From Aureococcus anophagefferens (taxonomy: Eukaryota > Sar > Pelagophyceae > Pelagomonadales > Pelagomonadaceae): a stretch of DNA of 64,000 nucleotides. Of this stretch, positions 12,309 through 21,824 are shown piece by piece. The notes under the pieces are model-generated. The model did no database searches and was not told the DNA's origin. It saw nothing but the letters and a program-made list of their open reading frames with translations. Location: the NCBI RefSeq assembly GCF_000186865.1, contig NW_008705563.1, forward strand, positions 745,445 through 809,444, in the 5' to 3' direction. Made by a program: the position numbers and the translations under genes. Numbering within the stretch: the first letter of the stretch is position 1; each line of letters begins with the position of its first letter.

Positions 12309-13712
12309 ATGCGACTCGTCCTCGTCGCCCTCGCGGCCCTCGAGGCCAGGTCAGACGACGACCCCGTCGTCGCGCAGGCGCGCCGCCAGCAATGCCCCGA
12401 CACGACCATCCCCATGCCCTGCCCGGACCGGACGACGCCAATTTTCGCGCTCCACATCCCGAAAACCGGCGGGAGGAGCCTCTGGACGCTCGCGGAGCGG
12501 GCGAGCGGCCAGGCGCTCTGCGAGTGGGCCCCGATGCGCTTCGCGCACTACAAGCAGTCGCTCGCGTACGCTAAAAACAAACGGCGGAAACGAAACGTGC
12601 CGCCGGACTTCGGCGACCCGGACCTCTTCGAAGGCCTCGTCGCGCGCCGCGCCGCGGGGCTCCGGGCCGCGCCGTGCCTCACGACCTACGAGGCCGGCTG
12701 GCGCGCGACGCGGGCCTTCGGCGCCGCCGTGCCCGCCGTCGCGACGATGGTCCGCGAGCCGACGAGCTGGCGCCTCAGCGTCGTCGACCACGGCCGCGAG
12801 CGGGGCCGCCACGGCGGCGCGGACGCGCTCCTCGCCGCCGGCTGCCTCGCCAAGCGCGGCGACGCCTGCGGGCCCGCCGCGGCCGCGCCGCTGCTCCTGT
12901 CGCTGACGGCGCCGACGCAGCCGCTGCTCCTGACGAGCGACGGCCGCGCGCCCGCTCCCGACGCGCCGATCGCCTGGACCGCGTCGAGCCTCGCCGAGGC
13001 CAAGGCGCACCTGGCGGCGTCGGTCTTCGGCGTCGTCGACTACTTCCCCGAGTCCGCGTGCCTCTTCGCGTACCAGTTCGGGACCTTTGGCAGCGGCGCG
13101 TACGACGCGAAGACCTGCGCCTGCCCGCGTGGCTCGCGGAACCGCTGGGCGTCCAAGGCCCGCGCGGAGAACGTGTCCGCGGCGGCGCTCCGCGCCCTCG
13201 GGTCGCTCCAGCGCGGCGCCGACGCGGACTTCTACGCCTACGCGCTGTCCCTCTTCTTCGACCGCGCGCGCGCGTTCGAGCGCGCGACGGGGACGCGGCT
13301 GCTCTGCGACGACGACGACGCGCATGCTAGGGGCCCTTTAATCTCGCGGATCTCGAAGACGACCTCGGCCGCGGGCGCGCCGCGGAAGGACGGCCGCGCG
13401 GCGAGCTCGACGACGCCCGCGGCCGCGAGGGCCTCGGGCGCGAGGTTCGCGGAGCAGAGCGGCGCGCCGCCCGCGGCGAAGACGTTGACGCGGAGCGGCG
13501 CCGCGCCGCCGGCCGAGAGGCGCACGATGGGCGACCGCACGGGGCCGTCGCTCTCGCCGCCGAGCACGGGCACGGCGCACTCGACCGTGGCGCCGCCGCA
13601 GCGCACGACGGCCGCGAGGGTCCTCGCGGCGCCCGCGGGCAGCTCGTCGTCGGGGAAGCGGACGCCGAAGCGCACCTCGCGGAGGGCGCCGCCGTCGGAG
13701 AGGTCGACGTAG
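12309..13712 (+). CDS. Sulfotransferase-family protein with aberrant C-terminal extension
   Basis: A signal peptide (MRLVLVALAALEARS) precedes FALHIPKTGGRSLW, the 5'-phosphosulfate loop of PAPS-dependent Golgi-type sulfotransferases. VREPTSWRLSVVDHG suits the 3'-phosphate loop. The domain ends near residue 340 with FERATGTRLLCDDDD. A related tail kept after the assembly gap (17392-17422) reads DDAHWGDS then TAG. Here about 12 bp are missing by comparison (around 13326-13338), the stop is lost, and the frame runs on antisense through the next gene to 13712. The natural protein probably ended near 13330. The extension is either a real mutation or an assembly fault. Confidence 0.7.
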   Translation: MRLVLVALAALEARSDDDPVVAQARRQQCPDTTIPMPCPDRTTPIFALHIPKTGGRSLWTLAERASGQALCEWAPMRFAHYKQSLAYAKNKRRKRNVPPDFGDPDLFEGLVARRAAGLRAAPCLTTYEAGWRATRAFGAAVPAVATMVREPTSWRLSVVDHGRERGRHGGADALLAAGCLAKRGDACGPAAAAPLLLSLTAPTQPLLLTSDGRAPAPDAPIAWTASSLAEAKAHLAASVFGVVDYFPESACLFAYQFGTFGSGAYDAKTCACPRGSRNRWASKARAENVSAAALRALGSLQRGADADFYAYALSLFFDRARAFERATGTRLLCDDDDAHARGPLISRISKTTSAAGAPRKDGRAASSTTPAAARASGARFAEQSGAPPAAKTLTRSGAAPPAERRTMGDRTGPSLSPPSTGTAHSTVAPPQRTTAARVLAAPAGSSSSGKRTPKRTSRRAPPSERST

Positions 13713-15092
13713 GCCGACCGGCGCCGGCCGCCCTCGGCCACGCGGCCGTCGCCCGCGAAGCGCGGAGGGCCGGGCCTCGGGCCGCCCGGGACGACGTCCG
13801 CCGGCGCGGCCGCCTCCTGCGGCGCGGCCGCGACCTCCCGCGGCGCCTGCTCCTCGGCGGCCGCGCGCCGCGCCGCCTCGTCGGCGGACGAGCGCCGGAG
13901 CTGGTCCCGGAAGACGAGCGGCGCCCGCGAGCCGAGGTCGACGGCGTCCGCCGCGTCGTCGAATTTCGGAGTCCGCTGGAGCTCGCGGGCCGCGGCGACG
14001 AGTTTGGACGTCGCGGACCGGCTCTCAGCGCGCGCCGCCGGCAGGTGCGCGTTCGTCAGCAGGAGGCGCTCGAGGTCCCGGAGCGCGAGCTCCGGCGCCG
14101 CGTCCAGACCTGTGTGGAAATCAAATCTTCAACCCGTGAGCGTATTCGAATGTTTTGACACAAGCACTTCCGCTGTGCTTCGAGAACTCGACGAGAGCAA
14201 TCGATTCGTCCAAAAATCAGCCGAATCGACGTCGATTTGACCGAGCTCGAGAATTTCAAAGTTTGGTCGGGACGTCCCAAACCAGTGGTTGATTTCCACA
14301 CAGGTCCAGACCCGCCGCCAGATGCGAATCGGGCGGGTTCGCGCCGCGGAGCGCGGCCCAGGACCGCCGGACGACCGCCGACGACGCGTAGCCGTTGCCG
14401 TAGGGGTCCGCGTCGTAGAAGGCCCTGCGCAGGTCGCAGTGGCTCGGCAGCTGGCGCGGCGCGGCCGCGACGGTGGGGACGACGCGCGCGGCCTTGGTCT
14501 GCGCCAGTTCCGCGGCGGTGATGATGTCGAAGCCCCGGCAGAGGTCGCCGGCGTCGTCGAAGGTCACGAGGGGGCGCACCTCGCGCGGGAGCTGCGCGGC
14601 GACCGCGGATTTGGAGACGAACCCGTCGGCCCCGCGGTCCTCGTCGAGCGCGTAGACGCGGCGCCGCAGGGACCGCAGCGCCTCGCGCCCGCCCGCGGCG
14701 CGCATGGCCGCCGCCGCGGCCTCCGCCGCCTCCTTGCGGTCCTGGTCCGCGGCCATGCGGCTCAGCTCGCGCGCGGCCCGGAGGTCCCGGCCGCGGTCCG
14801 CGACGCGCCGCTCCTTCAGGCGCTCGACGAACTCGTCGCGGTCCGCCTCGTCCATCATGTGCGCGAAGAGGTCGACCCAGGTCGACTTGATCACGGGGTG
14901 CGGCTCCACGGGCTGCGCCGCGCCGGCGGGCAGCGCCGGGCGCATCTTGTCCTTCTTCGCCGCCGCGAGTGCCCGCGCCGCGGGCCCGTAGGGGTCGACC
15001 TCGGCGTACGGCAGGTGCGGGCCGACCATGGGCCGCTGGCCACCGGGCTTGACCACGAGCGGCCGGTCTCGGGCCGCCATGAAGTCGGCCAT
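13238..15092 (-). CDS. Unknown EF-hand-like protein, duplicated gene copy 1 (with introner)
   Basis: This is copy 1 of a gene repeated at 17419-18987. Coding sequence is 14312-15092 joined to 13238-14109; the family B introner between them is absent from copy 2. The protein begins MADFMAARDRPLVVKPGGQR. It has an Ala/Arg helical middle and two EF-hand-like loops (LDEDRGADGFVS and DADPYGNGYAS), then a C-terminal beta-rich domain. No family is recognised, though EF-hand-like loops with long helices are common in axonemal proteins. Copy 1 has lost the stop used in copy 2, adding about 33 residues and overlapping the sulfotransferase frame. The start ATG is identical in both copies. Confidence 0.75.
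14110..14303 (+). mobile_element. Introner element, family B, in copy 1 of the EF-hand-like gene
   Basis: The 194 bp element has perfect 13 bp terminal inverted repeats (CTGTGTGGAAATC). It is flanked by GTCCAGAC at 14102-14109 and 14304-14311. The paralogue at about 18200 reads straight through a single GTCCAGAC, proving the insertion. In gene sense the intron is 14311 down to 14110 (202 bp), with GT from GTCTGGAC and AG from the element. The element core is antisense to the gene. Confidence 0.96.
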
Positions 15093-15329
15093 GGATGCAG
15101 GCTGATTACCACTGAGCTCTTGAAACGCGACAAGCCCGAACGACCTCGCGGCAGCCCATCGTGGGTTTCAACGCAAAAAGCCAACGATCTTGAAGCGACG
15201 TTGAGGCTCTGATATTGGGCTGCCCTCGGCTTATGCCCTGCAGGCTCCGTCGAGCCTCGTGAGTTCAGCACTTCCCCCCGTTCCCCCGCGCGTGCGTCGG
15301 GGCCCGTCGCTTGAGGTGCGCACCGCGTG

Positions 15330-16319
15330 ATGCCACCGCGAAAAATCGATGGAGATCTGTGCCGCGCTGCCGAGCGCGGCGACATGGATCACCTGCGAAG
15401 CGCTCTGACTGCCGGGGCCAGACCGAACGTGTTGGTTGGAAAGCACCGCGCGTTGCACTACGCAGTGAACGGCGGACAACTCGAAGCCATCCACGCTCTC
15501 CTCGAAGCAGGCGCGGATTTAGAACTGCGGGACCGCGCAGACCACACGCCGCTGACGCTAGCGCTTGACAAGACAATGCCAAGGGAGTTGTATGAAAAAG
15601 TCGATCTCCCTTTCCTCGGGCTGGACGAGGCGCGTGACGCGGTGGAGCGTCGGCTACTTCCAGTCGTCGTCGCTCTCATCAAATCGGGCGCCGACGTCGA
15701 CGCGTCATTTAAAATCGGGAAGCAATCGAGGGATGTCAAGGGTGAATTTAGTGCGCTGTATTGGCCTGTCTTCAGGGGGCGGCGGCGCACCGTCCTCACG
15801 CTCCTACGAGCCGGGGCCTTGATCAAAACCACGGATCGCTTCGAGCTCACCTTCACGGGTGACGAGGACCCTCAGCCGTTTTCGTGCTTTGGGACGCTGC
15901 TCAGTTTAGATCTATACAGCCCTCTTTTCGATGACTACAATTTGAAGTTCAAAGGCAATGTCCGGGTCGTGAGCATCGACGGCGAGTACAAAAACCCCTT
16001 CGATTTCACCAGTGATGATCTTGACGCCTTTCTCGCCGATCGCCGATCGGCCGCGCAGGCGGGGGCCCCTCAGCCGTATCGCGTCGGCTTCTTCCATCAA
16101 GAGCTGCACTTCCCGTATTTTGTGGATTCGAACGGAATGAATGATTCCACTCGCTTTCTCATGGATGCCATCAAGAAGGCCGGCAGCTTCGACGAGTACG
16201 CGCGCTTCCAGCAGCGCTACATCCACGTCGCCATTCTCACCAAGTGCGTCCAGGAGAAGCTTCCGCTCGACATCAAGACCGTCCTCACGACCTACCTCTG
16301 GAAGTGGGGCGGCGCCTGA
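15330..16319 (+). CDS. Ankyrin-repeat protein, duplicated gene copy 1
   Basis: The 329-residue protein has three to four ankyrin repeats in its first 170 residues (ALHYAVNGGQLEAIHALLEA, LPVVVALIKSGADVDA and TVLTLLRAGA). A C-terminal domain of unknown type follows, rich in aromatic residues (QPYRVGFFHQELHFPYF, FDEYARFQQRYIHV), ending LTTYLWKWGGA. The C-terminal domain resembles the tail shared by a large family of such algal ankyrin proteins, but this is memory-based. Both copies have exactly 330 codons. No signal peptide is seen. Its base composition is less GC-biased than the neighbours. Confidence 0.8.
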   Translation: MPPRKIDGDLCRAAERGDMDHLRSALTAGARPNVLVGKHRALHYAVNGGQLEAIHALLEAGADLELRDRADHTPLTLALDKTMPRELYEKVDLPFLGLDEARDAVERRLLPVVVALIKSGADVDASFKIGKQSRDVKGEFSALYWPVFRGRRRTVLTLLRAGALIKTTDRFELTFTGDEDPQPFSCFGTLLSLDLYSPLFDDYNLKFKGNVRVVSIDGEYKNPFDFTSDDLDAFLADRRSAAQAGAPQPYRVGFFHQELHFPYFVDSNGMNDSTRFLMDAIKKAGSFDEYARFQQRYIHVAILTKCVQEKLPLDIKTVLTTYLWKWGGA

Positions 16320-16377
16320 AGATCCCCACCCCGTCCCCTGGAGTCCCTAAGTTACGCCTCTCAGCTGCGCCGGCGGC

Positions 16378-16885
16378 CTAGGAGCGCGCGAGCTGGCTGC
16401 GGTCGACGGTCTTGACCGTGAGGGTCTCCTCGTTCTTCGCGTCGGCGCTGCGGTGGACCGTGAGGACGACGGAGGAGCCGATCTCCGTCTCCTCGACGAG
16501 CGTGAGGAGGTCCTCGACGGTCTTGACGGGCGTGCCGTTGACGCGCGTGATGAGGTCGCCCAAATAGAGCTGGCCGTTCTTGCGCATGCAGCCGACGAGG
16601 CCCGCGTCGGCGCCCGGCGAGTTCGGCGGCGCCTCCATGACCAAGACGCCGTCGAGGGGCGCGCCGAGGCGCATCGCGAGGCCGCGCGTCATCTGGTCGT
16701 CCGCGACGGAGATGCCCATGGACGGCCGGAGCATGCGGCCGTAGCGGATGAGCTGGTTGACGATGCGGCGCACGGAGTCGACGGGGATGGCGAAGCCGAT
16801 GCCCGCGGACGCGCCCGACGGCGAGTAGATGGCCGTGTTGACGCCGATCAGGCGGCCCTTCGCGTCCAGGAGCGGCCCGCCGGAG

Positions 16886-16916
<31 letters not shown>

Positions 16917-17341
16917 CGCAGCCCTTGATGGGCCGCCCCGCGACGCCCTGGACCTCGCGGCCCACCGCGGAGACGATGCCCTTGGTCAGCGTGTGGTCCA
17001 GGCCGAAGGGGTTGCCGATCGCGAGGACCGACTGGCCCACGAGCAGCTCGCTCGAACTGCCGACCTCGATGGGCTCGAGGACGGACGCCGGCGCGCGCAC
17101 CTTGAGCACGGCGATGTCCTTCTCCGGCTCCGCGCCGACCAGCGTCGCGTCGTAGGCGGCCATCGACGCCGCGTCGCCCGTCCCCAGACCCGTCACCGTC
17201 GCCTTCTGGGCCTGCTGGATGACGTGGTAGTTCGTGACGACGTGGCCCTCCGTGTCCCAGACGAAGCCCGACCCGGAGCCGCTCGGCGTGACCTCGCCGC
17301 GCATCGACAGCGGCGACGTCGACTTGACGACGGACGTCTGG
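16378..17341 (-). CDS. Deg/HtrA serine protease, copy 1, truncated by the assembly gap
   Basis: Trypsin-like domain with the full triad: His in VVTNYHVI, Asp in EKDIAVLKV and Ser in NPGNSGGPLL. A PDZ domain follows (GVLVMEAPPNSPGADAGL, DLITRVNGTPVKTVEDLL). Over the 308 shared residues I see one difference from copy 2 (Ser versus Ala in IPVDxVRR). The N-terminal transit region is missing because the gene runs into 50 N. At the point where copy 2 carries an introner this copy reads through GACTTGAC once (17319-17326 area), so it is the empty site. Confidence 0.9.
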
Positions 17342-17391
17342 NNNNNNNNNNNNNNNNNNNNNNNNNNNNNNNNNNNNNNNNNNNNNNNNNN
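17342..17391. other. Assembly gap (50 N)
   Basis: Fifty N sit exactly between the two halves of the tandem duplication. The missing sequence should hold the 5' end of Deg copy 1 and most of a second sulfotransferase gene, whose last codons and TAG reappear at 17392-17422. The true gap is therefore probably larger than 50 bp. A lone N also occurs at 19052. Confidence 0.98.
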
Positions 17392-17418
17392 CGACGACGA
17401 CGCGCATTGGGGCGATAG

Positions 17419-18987
17419 CTAGGGATCACCTTTAATCTCGCGGATCTCGAAGACGACCTCGGCCGCGGGCGCGCCGCGGAAGGACGGCCGCGCGGCGAGC
17501 TCGACGACGCCCGCGGCCGCGAGGGCCTCGGGCGCGAGGTTCGCGGAGCAGAGCGGCGCGCCGCCCGCGGCGAAGACGTTGACGCGGAGCGGCGCCGCGC
17601 CGCCGGCCGAGAGGCGCACGATGGGCGACCGCACGGGGCCGTCGCTCTCGCCGCCGAGCACGGGCACGGCGCACTCGACCGTGGCGCCGCCGCAGCGCAC
17701 GACGGCCGCGAGGGTCCTCGCGGCGCCCGCGGGCAGCTCGTCGTCGGGGAAGCGGACGCCGAAGCGCACCTCGCGGAGGGCGCCGCCGTCGGAGAGGTCG
17801 ACGTAGGCCGACCGGCGCCGGCCGCCCTCGGCCACGCGGCCGTCGCCCGCGAACCGCGGAGGCCCCGGCCTCGGGCCGCCCGGGACGACGTCCGCCGGCG
17901 CGGCCGCCTCCTGCGGCGCGGCCGCGACCTCCCGCGGCGCCTGCTCCTCGGCGGCCGCGCGCCGCGCCGCCTCGTCGGCCGACGAGCGCCGGAGCTGGTC
18001 CCGGAAGACGAGCGGTGCCCGCGAGCCGAGGTCGACGGCGTCCGCCGCGTCGTCGAACTTCGGCGTCCGCTGGAGCTCGCGGGCCGCGGCGACGAGTTTG
18101 GACGTCGCGGACCGGCTCTCGGCGCGCGCCGCCGGCAGGTGCGCGTTCGTCAGCAGCAAGCGCTCGAGGTCCCGGAGCGCGAGCTCCGGCGCCGCGTCCA
18201 GACCCGCCGCCAGATGCGAATCGGGCGGGTTCGCGCCGCGCAGCGCAGCCCAGGACCGCCGGACGACCGCCGACGACGCGTAGCCGTTGCCGTAGGGGTC
18301 CGCGTCGTAGAAGGCCCTGCGCAGGTCGCAGTGGCTCGGCAGCTGGCGCGGCGCGGCCGCGACGGTGGGGACGACGCGCGGGGCCTTGGTCTGCGCCGAG
18401 AGCTCCGCAGCGGTGATGATGTCGAAGCCCCGGCAGAGGTCGCCGGCGTCGTCGAAGGCCACGAGCGGGCGCACGTCGCGCGGGAGCTGCGCGGCGGCCG
18501 CGGACGCGGAGACGAACCCGTCGGCCCCGCGGTCCTCGTCGAGCGCGTAGACGCGGCGCCGCAGGGACCGCAGCGCCTCGCGCCCGCCCGCGGCGCGCAT
18601 GGCCGCCGCCGCGGCCTCCGCCGCCTCCTTGCGGTCCTGGTCCGCGGCCATGCGGCTCAGCTCGCGCGCGGCCCGGAGGTCCCGGCCGCGGTCCGCGACG
18701 CGCCGCTCCTTCAAGCGCTCGACGAACTCGTCGCGGTCCGCCTCGTCCATCATGTGCGCGAAGAGGTCGACCCAGGTCGATTTGATCACCGGGTGCGGCT
18801 CCACGGGCTGCGCCGCGCCGGCGGGCAGCGCCGGGCGCATCTTGTCCTTCTTCGCCGCCGCGAGTGCCCGCGCCGCGGGCCCGTAGGGGTCGACCTCGGC
18901 GTACGGCAGGTGCGGGCCGACCATGGGCCGCTGACCCCCAGGCTTGACCACGAGCGGCCGGTCGCGGGCCTCCATGAAGTCGGCCAT
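17419..18987 (-). CDS. Unknown EF-hand-like protein, duplicated gene copy 2 (intronless)
   Basis: This uninterrupted 522-residue frame is the reference form of the gene at 13238-15092. Differences from copy 1 are few (for example MEARD for MAARD and VSASAAAAQLPRD for VSKSAVAAQLPRE). Two EF-hand-like loops lie near residues 150 and 225. A Glu/Ala/Arg-rich helical region follows. The last 150 residues form an apparent beta domain (SAYVDLSDGGALREVRFGV). The protein ends IREIKGDP, with its stop overlapping that of the convergent sulfotransferase. The function is unknown. Confidence 0.8.
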   Translation of the reverse strand: MADFMEARDRPLVVKPGGQRPMVGPHLPYAEVDPYGPAARALAAAKKDKMRPALPAGAAQPVEPHPVIKSTWVDLFAHMMDEADRDEFVERLKERRVADRGRDLRAARELSRMAADQDRKEAAEAAAAAMRAAGGREALRSLRRRVYALDEDRGADGFVSASAAAAQLPRDVRPLVAFDDAGDLCRGFDIITAAELSAQTKAPRVVPTVAAAPRQLPSHCDLRRAFYDADPYGNGYASSAVVRRSWAALRGANPPDSHLAAGLDAAPELALRDLERLLLTNAHLPAARAESRSATSKLVAAARELQRTPKFDDAADAVDLGSRAPLVFRDQLRRSSADEAARRAAAEEQAPREVAAAPQEAAAPADVVPGGPRPGPPRFAGDGRVAEGGRRRSAYVDLSDGGALREVRFGVRFPDDELPAGAARTLAAVVRCGGATVECAVPVLGGESDGPVRSPIVRLSAGGAAPLRVNVFAAGGAPLCSANLAPEALAAAGVVELAARPSFRGAPAAEVVFEIREIKGDP

Positions 18988-19201
18988 CCTGGGACAGCAA
19001 AGAACGACCCGGGTGGGCTACGATCCCACGACCATCGTGGGTTTCAACGCANAAAGCCAACGATCTTGAAGCGACGTTGAGGCTCTGATATTGGGCTGCC
19101 CTCGGCTTATGCCCTGCAGGCTCCGTCGAGCCTCGTGAGTTCAGCACTTCCCCCCGTTCCCCCGCGCGTGCGTCGGGGCCCGTCGCTTGAAGCACCGCGT
19201 G

Positions 19202-20191
19202 ATGTCTGAGCCCATCGACAGCCCGGCGGGAGTTTTGGGCGCGGCTGCTTGTAATGGCGACATGGACCTGCTGACACGCTGCTTGGCTGACGGGACCGAT
19301 CCGAACGCCGCGGTTGGTCCTATGGGCGTGCGCGCGTTGCACGCCGCGGTGCGGGGCGGAAGCATCGAAGTCATCCACACTCTCCTCGAAGCAGGCGCGG
19401 ATTTAGAGCTGGCCAACCGCGAGGGGTATACGCCGCTGATGGCGGCGGTTTTCATGACGGCACCTCGTGCGCTGTATGGAGAACTCGAAGACACCTTCCT
19501 CGGGCTGGACGAAGCGCGTGACGCGGTGGAGCGCCGGCTACTTCCAGCGGTCGTCGCTCTCATCGAATCAGGCGCCGACTTCGAAGCGGAATATTCTACC
19601 AACGATTTAAAGATACTGTGGTGGGCCGTCAAGTCCGGGCGGCGTCGCACCGTCCTCACGCTCCTGCGAGCCGGGGCCAAGTCTGAAAGCAAGGATCGCT
19701 TGGAGCTCACCTACACGGGTGACGAACCCTTTCCTCCCTTTTCGTGCTATCGCAAGGACCGTGGCGAAGCGAAACCACTTCGCGTCCGTGACATAGAGAG
19801 CAAGTTCTTCAAGAATCCTAAGTTCGGCGGTTATCTGGAGATCGTGAGCATCGACGGCAAGCCCATCACCGCCGATTTCAGCAGTGATGATCTTGACGCC
19901 TTTCTCGCTGCTCGCCAATCGGCCGCGCAGGCGGGGGCCCATCAGCCGTATCGCGTCGGCTTCTTCCATCAAGAGTTTCACTTCTCGCCCGCGCGCGAAC
20001 CGTTTGGAAGCAACGACTCCACGCTCGCTCTCATGGATGCCATCAAGAAGGCCGGCAGCTTCGACGAGTACGCGCGCTTCCAGCAGCGCTACATCCACGT
20101 CGGCATCATCACCAAGTGCTCCCAGGACACGCTCCCGCTGGAGACCAAGACCATCATCACGACCTACCTCTGGAAGTGGGGCGGCGCCTGA
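19202..20191 (+). CDS. Ankyrin-repeat protein, duplicated gene copy 2
   Basis: 329 residues, same length and architecture as copy 1: ankyrin repeats (GVRALHAAVRGGSIEVIHTL, GYTPLMAAVF, TVLTLLRAGAKSE), then the aromatic C-terminal domain ending TTYLWKWGGA. By eye only about 60% of residues match copy 1, although the genes on either side are nearly identical. Blocks such as LGLDEARDAVERRLLP, QPYRVGFFHQE and MDAIKKAGSFDEYARFQQRY are kept. The start ATG at 19202 differs in context from copy 1. Confidence 0.8.
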   Translation: MSEPIDSPAGVLGAAACNGDMDLLTRCLADGTDPNAAVGPMGVRALHAAVRGGSIEVIHTLLEAGADLELANREGYTPLMAAVFMTAPRALYGELEDTFLGLDEARDAVERRLLPAVVALIESGADFEAEYSTNDLKILWWAVKSGRRRTVLTLLRAGAKSESKDRLELTYTGDEPFPPFSCYRKDRGEAKPLRVRDIESKFFKNPKFGGYLEIVSIDGKPITADFSSDDLDAFLAARQSAAQAGAHQPYRVGFFHQEFHFSPAREPFGSNDSTLALMDAIKKAGSFDEYARFQQRYIHVGIITKCSQDTLPLETKTIITTYLWKWGGA

Positions 20192-20264
20192 AGATCCCCA
20201 CCCCCTGTGTCCACCCCGTCCCCTGAAGCCCCTAAGTTACGCCTCCTGCGAGCAAGCGCCGCGC

Positions 20265-20772
20265 CTAGGAGCGCGCGAGCTGGCTGCGGTCGACGGTCTT
20301 GACCGTGAGGGTCTCCTCGTTCTTCGCGTCGGCGCTGCGGTGGACCGTGAGGACGACGGAGGAGCCGATCTCCGTCTCCTCGACGAGCGTGAGGAGGTCC
20401 TCGACGGTCTTGACGGGCGTGCCGTTGACGCGCGTGATGAGGTCGCCCAAATAGAGCTGGCCGTTCTTGCGCATGCAGCCGACGAGGCCCGCGTCGGCGC
20501 CCGGCGAGTTCGGCGGCGCCTCCATGACCAAGACGCCGTCGAGGGGCGCGCCGAGGCGCATCGCGAGGCCCCGCGTCATCTGGTCGTCCGCGACGGAGAT
20601 GCCCATGGACGGCCGGAGCATGCGGCCGTAGCGGATGAGCTGGTTGACGATGCGGCGCACGGCGTCGACGGGGATGGCGAAGCCGATGCCCGCGGACGCG
20701 CCCGACGGCGAGTAGATGGCCGTGTTCACGCCGATCAAGCGGCCCTTCGCGTCCAGGAGCGGCCCGCCGGAG

Positions 20773-20803
<31 letters not shown>

Positions 20804-21824
20804 CGCAGCCCTTGATGGGCCGCCCCGCGACGCCCTGGACCTCGCGGCCCACCGCGGAGACGATGCCCTTGGTCAGCGTGTGGTCCAGGCCGAAGGGGTT
20901 GCCGATCGCGAGGACCGACTGGCCCACGAGCAGCTCGCTCGAACTGCCGACCTCGATGGGCTCGAGCACGGACGCCGGCGCGCGCACCTTGAGCACGGCG
21001 ATGTCCTTCTCCGGCTCCGCGCCGACCAGCGTCGCGTCGTAGGCGGCCATCGACGCCGCGTCGCCCGTCCCCAAACCCGTCACCGTCGCCTTCTGGGCCT
21101 GCTGGATGACGTGGTAGTTCGTGACGACGTGGCCCTCCGTGTCCCAGACGAAGCCCGACCCGGAGCCGCTCGGCGTGACCTCGCCGCGCATCGACAGCGG
21201 CGACGTCGACTTGACCTGGGCAGGAAAAGGGTGCGAAATTCCCCAACTTTGGAGGCTCCTATCTCGGTCATTTTCCACTCGTTTCGGCTGATTTTGGGAC
21301 GAGTGATCATCCCTCGGAGCGCTCTCGACGCGTGGATGCTTTTTCCGGAACGCGCGCGCGCGGAACACTCACGTTGAAGCGAAATTGAATCACCCTTTTG
21401 CTGCCCTGGACTTGACGACGGACGTCTGGATGAACGCCACGGACGGCGCGACGCGCTGGAAGAGCTCGACGACGGACCGTTCGCCCGCGTCGAGCTGGCC
21501 CATGGCGCTCGCGGCGCCGCCGCTCAGGCCGTCGCCGCCCCGGAGCGCGTCCTGGAGCCGCTCGACGAGCTCGCGCTTCTCCAAACAGTCGCGGAAGTCG
21601 ATGCCGCGCTCGCCCAGCAGCCGCTTCAGCTCCGACGTCGTGAAGTCGGACGCGGACCGCGCGCCGTGGAGGGCGCCGCCGCGCCGGCTGAGGCCCAGGG
21701 TCGGCGCCGCCGCGCCGCCGCGGAAGCCGCGCCGCGCCGCGCCGACGAGCGGCGCGTTGAGGAAGCCGAAGGCCCGCGCGTTGAGCACGAGCATGGACCG
21801 GAGCAGCGGTGAGCTGCGCATCAT
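20265..21824 (-). CDS. Plastid Deg/HtrA serine protease with SAP-like N-terminal domain, copy 2
   Basis: Coding sequence is 21417-21824 joined to 20265-21215, giving 452 residues. The N-terminus (MMRSSPLLRSMLVLNARAFG, then FLNAPLVGAARRGFRGG) suits organelle targeting, probably plastid, as for Deg1. A SAP-like helical motif follows (SELKRLLGERGIDFRDCLEK). The protease domain has TNYHVI, EKDIAVL and NPGNSGGPL, with a full triad. One PDZ domain is at the C-terminus. Deg proteases degrade damaged photosystem proteins. The family A introner is excised at VVK/STSPLS, exactly restoring the sequence seen uninterrupted in copy 1. The start could be either of two adjacent ATGs (21821 or 21824). Confidence 0.9.
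21216..21408 (+). mobile_element. Introner element, family A, in Deg copy 2
   Basis: The 193 bp element is flanked by GACTTGAC at 21208-21215 and 21409-21416. Deg copy 1 has the empty site with one GACTTGAC. In gene sense the intron is 21416 down to 21216 (201 bp), starting GTCAAGTC and ending CCTGCCCAG. The element core runs opposite to the gene. Confidence 0.97.

Follow-up and report, generated by a model that had tools for sequence, protein, structure and literature searches.

Reciprocal filled and empty introner sites at one locus of Aureococcus anophagefferens, probably on two unmerged haplotypes

Introner elements of the alga Aureococcus anophagefferens, with 8-bp direct repeats, were reportedly described by Huff, Zilberman and Roy in Nature in 2016, and the study of introner presence and absence in Micromonas is said to be by Verhelst et al. 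According to an excerpt of PMC7789003, the introners of A. anophagefferens always come with direct repeats, terminal inverted repeats and canonical splicing motifs. Extracts of Gozashti et al. 2022 (PMC9860276) describe in Aureococcus sp. an introner family 4 with an 8-bp target duplication, the empty site being taken from an isolate without the insertion, and an extract of PMC3879977 reports Micromonas introners present or absent among individuals, with 511 novel insertions from 913 metagenomic sequences. Here we analyzed a 64,000-nucleotide stretch of A. anophagefferens DNA (C3:745445-809444, hereafter the window; 72% GC), in which two related halves, copy 1 and copy 2, each hold an introner at a site that is empty in the other half. 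Each copy holds three genes, the outer two, an uncharacterised gene and a Deg-type trypsin/PDZ protease gene, lying on the minus strand and the ankyrin-repeat gene between them on the plus strand. The elements themselves are the known DNA-transposon-like introner of Aureococcus, whose mechanism of gain has already been described for this alga.

A preliminary description, made from the letters of the window, had proposed aligning the two halves. In this alignment we found two long one-sided gaps, one of 202 bp at 14102 with the sequence in copy 1 only and one of 201 bp at 21216 with the sequence in copy 2 only, each corresponding to an element plus one 8-bp repeat (Table 1); no other gap exceeded 24 bp. 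The alignment thus bore out both site descriptions, i.e., a family B element between two copies of GTCCAGAC in copy 1 where copy 2 has one, and a family A element between two copies of GACTTGAC in copy 2 where copy 1 has one. The comparison of filled and empty sites supports an 8-bp target duplication for the two families, as had been claimed, although to call this proof was too strong. On the coding strand, the family B insertion reads GTCTGGAC-CTGTGTGG...CCACACAG-GTCTGGAC and the family A insertion GTCAAGTC-CAGGGCAG...CTGCCCAG-GTCAAGTC; the terminal bases of the two elements are inverted at 10 of 10 and 8 of 10 positions, respectively.

Both introns start with GT and end with CAG on the coding strand, the GT being drawn from the target repeat and the CAG from the element, and removal of the element together with one repeat restores the frame. 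Excision from the first GT to the final CAG yields the uninterrupted sequence of the other copy, and for the uncharacterised gene the protein of copy 1 is then the same as that of copy 2 across the site. If retained, either element would lead to a stop in the coding frame, and the 202-bp family B intron would cause a frameshift. From these signals we infer that both introns are spliced.

Compared with its 10 closest family members, the family B element carries one private substitution and a 9-bp deletion, and the family A element of copy 2 one private substitution and one inserted base. Since private changes are so few, both elements seem to date from about the time when the flanking genes split, or from later, an estimate that such small counts keep rough. 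The earlier statement that both insertions followed a duplication therefore holds in part: they appear young enough to postdate the split of the copies, while the duplication itself is not well supported.

The same features recur in the families at large. Searches of the alga's own genome covered 49 Mb in 86 scaffolds and gave 2000 first-look candidates for family A and 1789 for family B, with 40 of 40 scored matches reported per family. Repeats were examined in a 264-kb stretch made up of the window and the next 200 kb (19.6 kb of it N), where 21 copies of family A and eight of family B reach 150 bp or more. With a script allowed to move element ends by up to 25 bp, an 8-bp flanking repeat was located for all 21 family A copies (19 perfect, two with one mismatch) and for five of the eight family B copies; none was located by the script for the other three or for three further family B rows. 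A chance origin of the repeats was rejected, since among 200,000 random 192-bp blocks drawn from this stretch the fraction flanked by a perfect 8-bp repeat was only 0.00029. Read on the strand that gives the element its CAG end, the family A repeat starts with GT in 12/21 and with GC in 9/21 copies, against a background of 0.20 for GT or GC. Joining the open frame across family A copies gave the longer frame on the predicted sense strand in 17/21 cases and on the opposite strand in 4/21, which is a weak test in a GC-rich genome. Family A also occurs in two forms, with the 3' splice-site end at one terminus in 8/21 copies and at the other in 13/21; the copy 2 element belongs to the form with 8/21.

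The preliminary description had taken the two halves for a tandem duplication, and had named haplotypes falsely joined as the scenario that would overturn this. The latter fits better. We put at roughly 0.72 the probability that the two halves are two haplotypes of one locus, left unmerged around a hypervariable ankyrin gene and each with its own introner gain, a figure that includes a mixed culture as a sub-case. We prefer the haplotype reading because of the homology at the contig tips, the unequal synonymous divergence (dS) along the locus, an insertion in common with another assembly and the presence of sequence like a second haplotype elsewhere in the genome. The haplotypes, within a diploid cell or a mixed culture, would have been assembled as two contigs, merging being blocked by the strong ankyrin difference between conserved flanks, and the overlapping contig ends would then have been set side by side with a standard 50-N gap. 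After the haplotypes split, a family B introner would have entered one of them and a family A introner the other. Both elements are short, DNA-transposon-like units that have inverted ends and produce an 8-bp target duplication. The gene would tolerate such an insertion because the element and the duplicated target provide the splice sites, the 3' site (CAG) coming from the element end and the 5' site (GT) from the duplicated target, so that splicing would recover the old message exactly.

The gap of 50 N between the halves had been omitted from the preliminary description; given this gap, the junction of the copies is not read on one molecule. Homology between the copies extends to the last base of the left contig and to the first base of the right contig. 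Among the five 50-N gaps in the 264-kb stretch, such extended edge overlap was found only here; the other four had none, one of them showing a 97-bp match of 76% near its tips. Overlap at gap edges as a general assembly fault was thus rejected (0/4 other gaps).

Divergence between the copies is far from even. For the uncharacterised gene, dS was 0.058 and nonsynonymous divergence (dN) 0.007 (519 codons), and for the Deg gene 0.021 and 0.0015 (308 codons), whereas for the ankyrin gene the values were 0.35 and 0.305 (318 codons). The ankyrin dS was 6- to 17-fold that of the flanks (P < 1e-13 against each flanking gene; P = 0.03 for flank against flank). The ankyrin region diverges by 11-33% per 200-column window of the copy alignment, so the halves, which had been called almost identical, do not deserve that term throughout; the two ankyrin proteins are 63% identical. 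The two ankyrin copies are each other's only close match in the 86 scaffolds, from a genome that is possibly incomplete; the next match was below 100 bp at the DNA level and scored 43 bits against 368 at the protein level. Replacement of one ankyrin copy from a close paralog was rejected, as these scaffolds hold no near third copy. Of the 14 ankyrin relatives aligned (P0001-P0014), one resembles copy 1 at 95% and four resemble copy 2 at 79-92%; the other nine reach 43-66% with either copy, and similarity forms a patchwork along the alignment. A hypervariable locus or family would look like this, and the ankyrin cassette is perhaps under balancing selection as a hypervariable locus. The cassette (15093-16385 and 18988-20270) is locally 25-30% divergent between flanks that differ by 1-5%, and keeps identical stretches in about 140 bp upstream of the gene and in the C-terminal part. 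Two scans of viral contigs, for relatives of the ankyrin gene and of the uncharacterised gene, gave pattern matches and zero relatives.

The proteins of the window match the A. anophagefferens records JL722_6917 and JL721_3470. The latter (P0125), a protein model from another assembly of the species, carries, at the Deg site that is filled in copy 2, a family A element in translated form. Two peptides, SISLQRE and DDHSSQNQ, are found in both JL721_3470 and the copy 2 element but in 0/30 further family A copies, of which 20 lie in the 264-kb stretch and 10 are the closest ones in the whole genome. Given these two marks, we reject a second, independent insertion in JL721 and take the insertion in JL721 and copy 2 as common by descent. 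If so, the insertion is not peculiar to either half of a duplication in this genome. In the part of Deg that was compared, the copies differ at one amino acid, and there JL721 has A, as does copy 2, instead of S. P0123 (76 members) reads through the Deg site without an intron, and P0121 and JL722_6917 do so at the family B site; in each case this may reflect a spliced message, a gene model or an empty allele. At six comparable positions that distinguish the two versions of the uncharacterised protein, P0121 and JL722_6917 jointly follow copy 1 at two and copy 2 at three, and disagree with each other at one, which by itself favors neither version. For the uncharacterised gene two proteins were found, one of them from JL722, in an annotation that may miss copies. 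As a separate observation, the public gene model JL721_3470 includes an introner translated as protein; in its assembly some introners thus seem to have been taken for exons.

Elsewhere in the genome, scaffold C78 matches C10:520552-514620 at 98.7%, ending exactly at the edge of a 50-N gap in C10, and matches C10:265568-271800 in three pieces at 96.6, 96.8 and 99.0%. A family A element at about C10:269401-269590 is absent from C78; its left 8-bp repeat is not intact, and it is no clean case of target duplication. Because C78 duplicates parts of C10 and lacks one of its family A elements, second-haplotype sequence seems to be present in the assembly. The join within C78 has the orientation expected at an inversion junction, beside the C10 gap, an arrangement that would result if the haplotypes differed by an inversion or if a piece of C10 were misoriented.

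Several points weigh against the haplotype reading. Homology to both tips would equally arise if a tandem duplication had its junction in the gap, and by itself it is therefore not decisive. Four of the five 50-N gaps lack overlap, so unmerged ends are not general in this assembly. C78 joins places about 250 kb apart in C10 and thus does not simply copy a haplotype; nothing in the compared C10 regions corresponds to bases 8181-8763 of C78, and the likeness of C78 to C10 could possibly have arisen by segmental duplication. In a sample of the small scaffold C82, no second copy was found except for the introner inside it, and a sample of the small scaffold C74 matched nothing, itself included, and is uninformative. 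Within the common insertion, JL721_3470 reads EPPKLGIS where the copy 2 element, with one extra base, reads EPPKLGNF, and JL721 could be the same strain resequenced. The ploidy of A. anophagefferens was not found in the literature searched.

The strongest competitor, though we regard it as unlikely, is a genuine tandem duplication that has its junction in the gap and whose copies 1 and 2 received family B and family A, respectively. The halves do adjoin in one scaffold, the absence of overlap at 4/4 other nearby gaps makes this place special, and the same stretch holds gap-free, diverged local duplications (174.6-180.7 kb, 83-91% identity). The ankyrin copies would then have diverged or been replaced while the flanks stayed alike or were homogenised by gene conversion. 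However, a single event predicts a single age, and dS differs 6- to 17-fold, a pattern that gene conversion could blur; no close paralog able to replace the ankyrin copy was found in the 86 scaffolds; and JL721 should hold the empty copy too, yet only one close Deg protein was found among the 120 best of 7998 matches, in an annotation that may miss copies. Two strains mixed in the sequenced culture, with the same locus assembled from each, form a sub-case of the haplotype reading which shares its support and which we consider rather improbable: an excerpt of PMC11371579 calls cultures of this alga non-axenic isolates, which says nothing on clonality, and direct evidence was found neither for nor against it. 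We infer gain rather than loss of the introners; that both are old and each was precisely lost from one copy, through a reverse-transcribed message or gene conversion, is very improbable, for although such loss would leave one repeat copy, as observed, and the Deg site is filled in JL721, the very few private changes mark the elements as young, and two gains are a simpler account than two exact losses, each from a different copy.

The features of the locus are collected in Table 1. The uncharacterised gene had been labeled EF-hand-like, a label that we do not retain, as a Pfam search up to E 0.1 returned zero matches for it. Where two genes meet tail to tail, 10 bp are missing from copy 1 (13310-13345 against 17392-17435); without them both reading frames continue into the opposite gene, while copy 2 has a stop for both. 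The JL722_6917 protein likewise continues past the tail-to-tail gene end, as the copy 1 frames do. A run of 19,625 N (C3:809445-829069) starts at the first base beyond the window.

Table 1. Positions of the two copies, their genes and the introner sites within the window.
Feature	Position	Strand	Remarks
Copy 1	13310..17341		End of left contig; family B filled, family A site empty
Uncharacterised gene, copy 1	13238..15092	-	Family B element inside
Target duplication GTCCAGAC, left	14102..14109		8 bp
Family B introner	14110..14303	-	194 bp; in uncharacterised gene of copy 1; 9-bp deletion relative to its family
Target duplication GTCCAGAC, right	14304..14311		8 bp
Ankyrin-repeat gene, copy 1	15330..16319	+	
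Deg-type trypsin/PDZ protease gene, copy 1	16378..17341	-	Truncated by gap
Family A empty site, copy 1	17321..17328		One GACTTGAC
Assembly gap	17342..17391		Exactly 50 N; separates copy 1 and copy 2
Copy 2	17392..21429		Start of right contig; family B site empty, family A filled
Uncharacterised gene, copy 2	17419..18987	-	522-amino-acid frame without interruption
Family B empty site, copy 2	18196..18203		One GTCCAGAC
Ankyrin-repeat gene, copy 2	19202..20191	+	
Deg-type trypsin/PDZ protease gene, copy 2	20265..21823	-	Family A element inside; putative start codon position, frame-based
Target duplication GACTTGAC, left	21208..21215		8 bp
Family A introner	21216..21408	-	193 bp; in Deg gene of copy 2
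Target duplication GACTTGAC, right	21409..21416		8 bp

The locus adds reciprocal empty and filled sites within one assembly, and it also serves as a warning, since the apparent duplication probably represents two haplotypes. Should this reading be true, new introns can be caught while polymorphic, and their early fate could therefore be measured by allele-specific RNA and population sampling. More broadly, we give an even chance to the idea that introners are still moving in A. anophagefferens and segregate as heterozygous insertions, with filled and empty alleles of a gene present together in one genome, here on long-lived haplotypes kept apart around a hypervariable ankyrin locus. Were this so, intron gain could be measured allele against allele in one cell, in terms of splicing, expression and fitness, the empty allele serving as control. 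In the literature searched, whose coverage excluded most subscription journals, no title dealt with heterozygous introners in Aureococcus.

Set beside the known introners of A. anophagefferens, the elements of this locus are no different: both have inverted ends, 8-bp direct repeats and thousands of copies, and in both one splice site is carried by the element and the other comes from the duplicated target. As far as the extracts of the respective articles go, family 4 of Aureococcus sp. likewise makes an 8-bp target duplication and was compared with an empty site, but both splice sites lie within it and the message gains 12 bp, whereas predicted splicing here leaves the message unchanged. By the same extracts, Micromonas introners are, as here, present in some individuals and absent in others; that work, however, concerns another alga and other families and drew on metagenomes and another strain, in contrast to the two versions of a locus in one assembly studied here. 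What sets this locus apart is the reciprocal pairing of empty and filled states on its two versions within one assembly.

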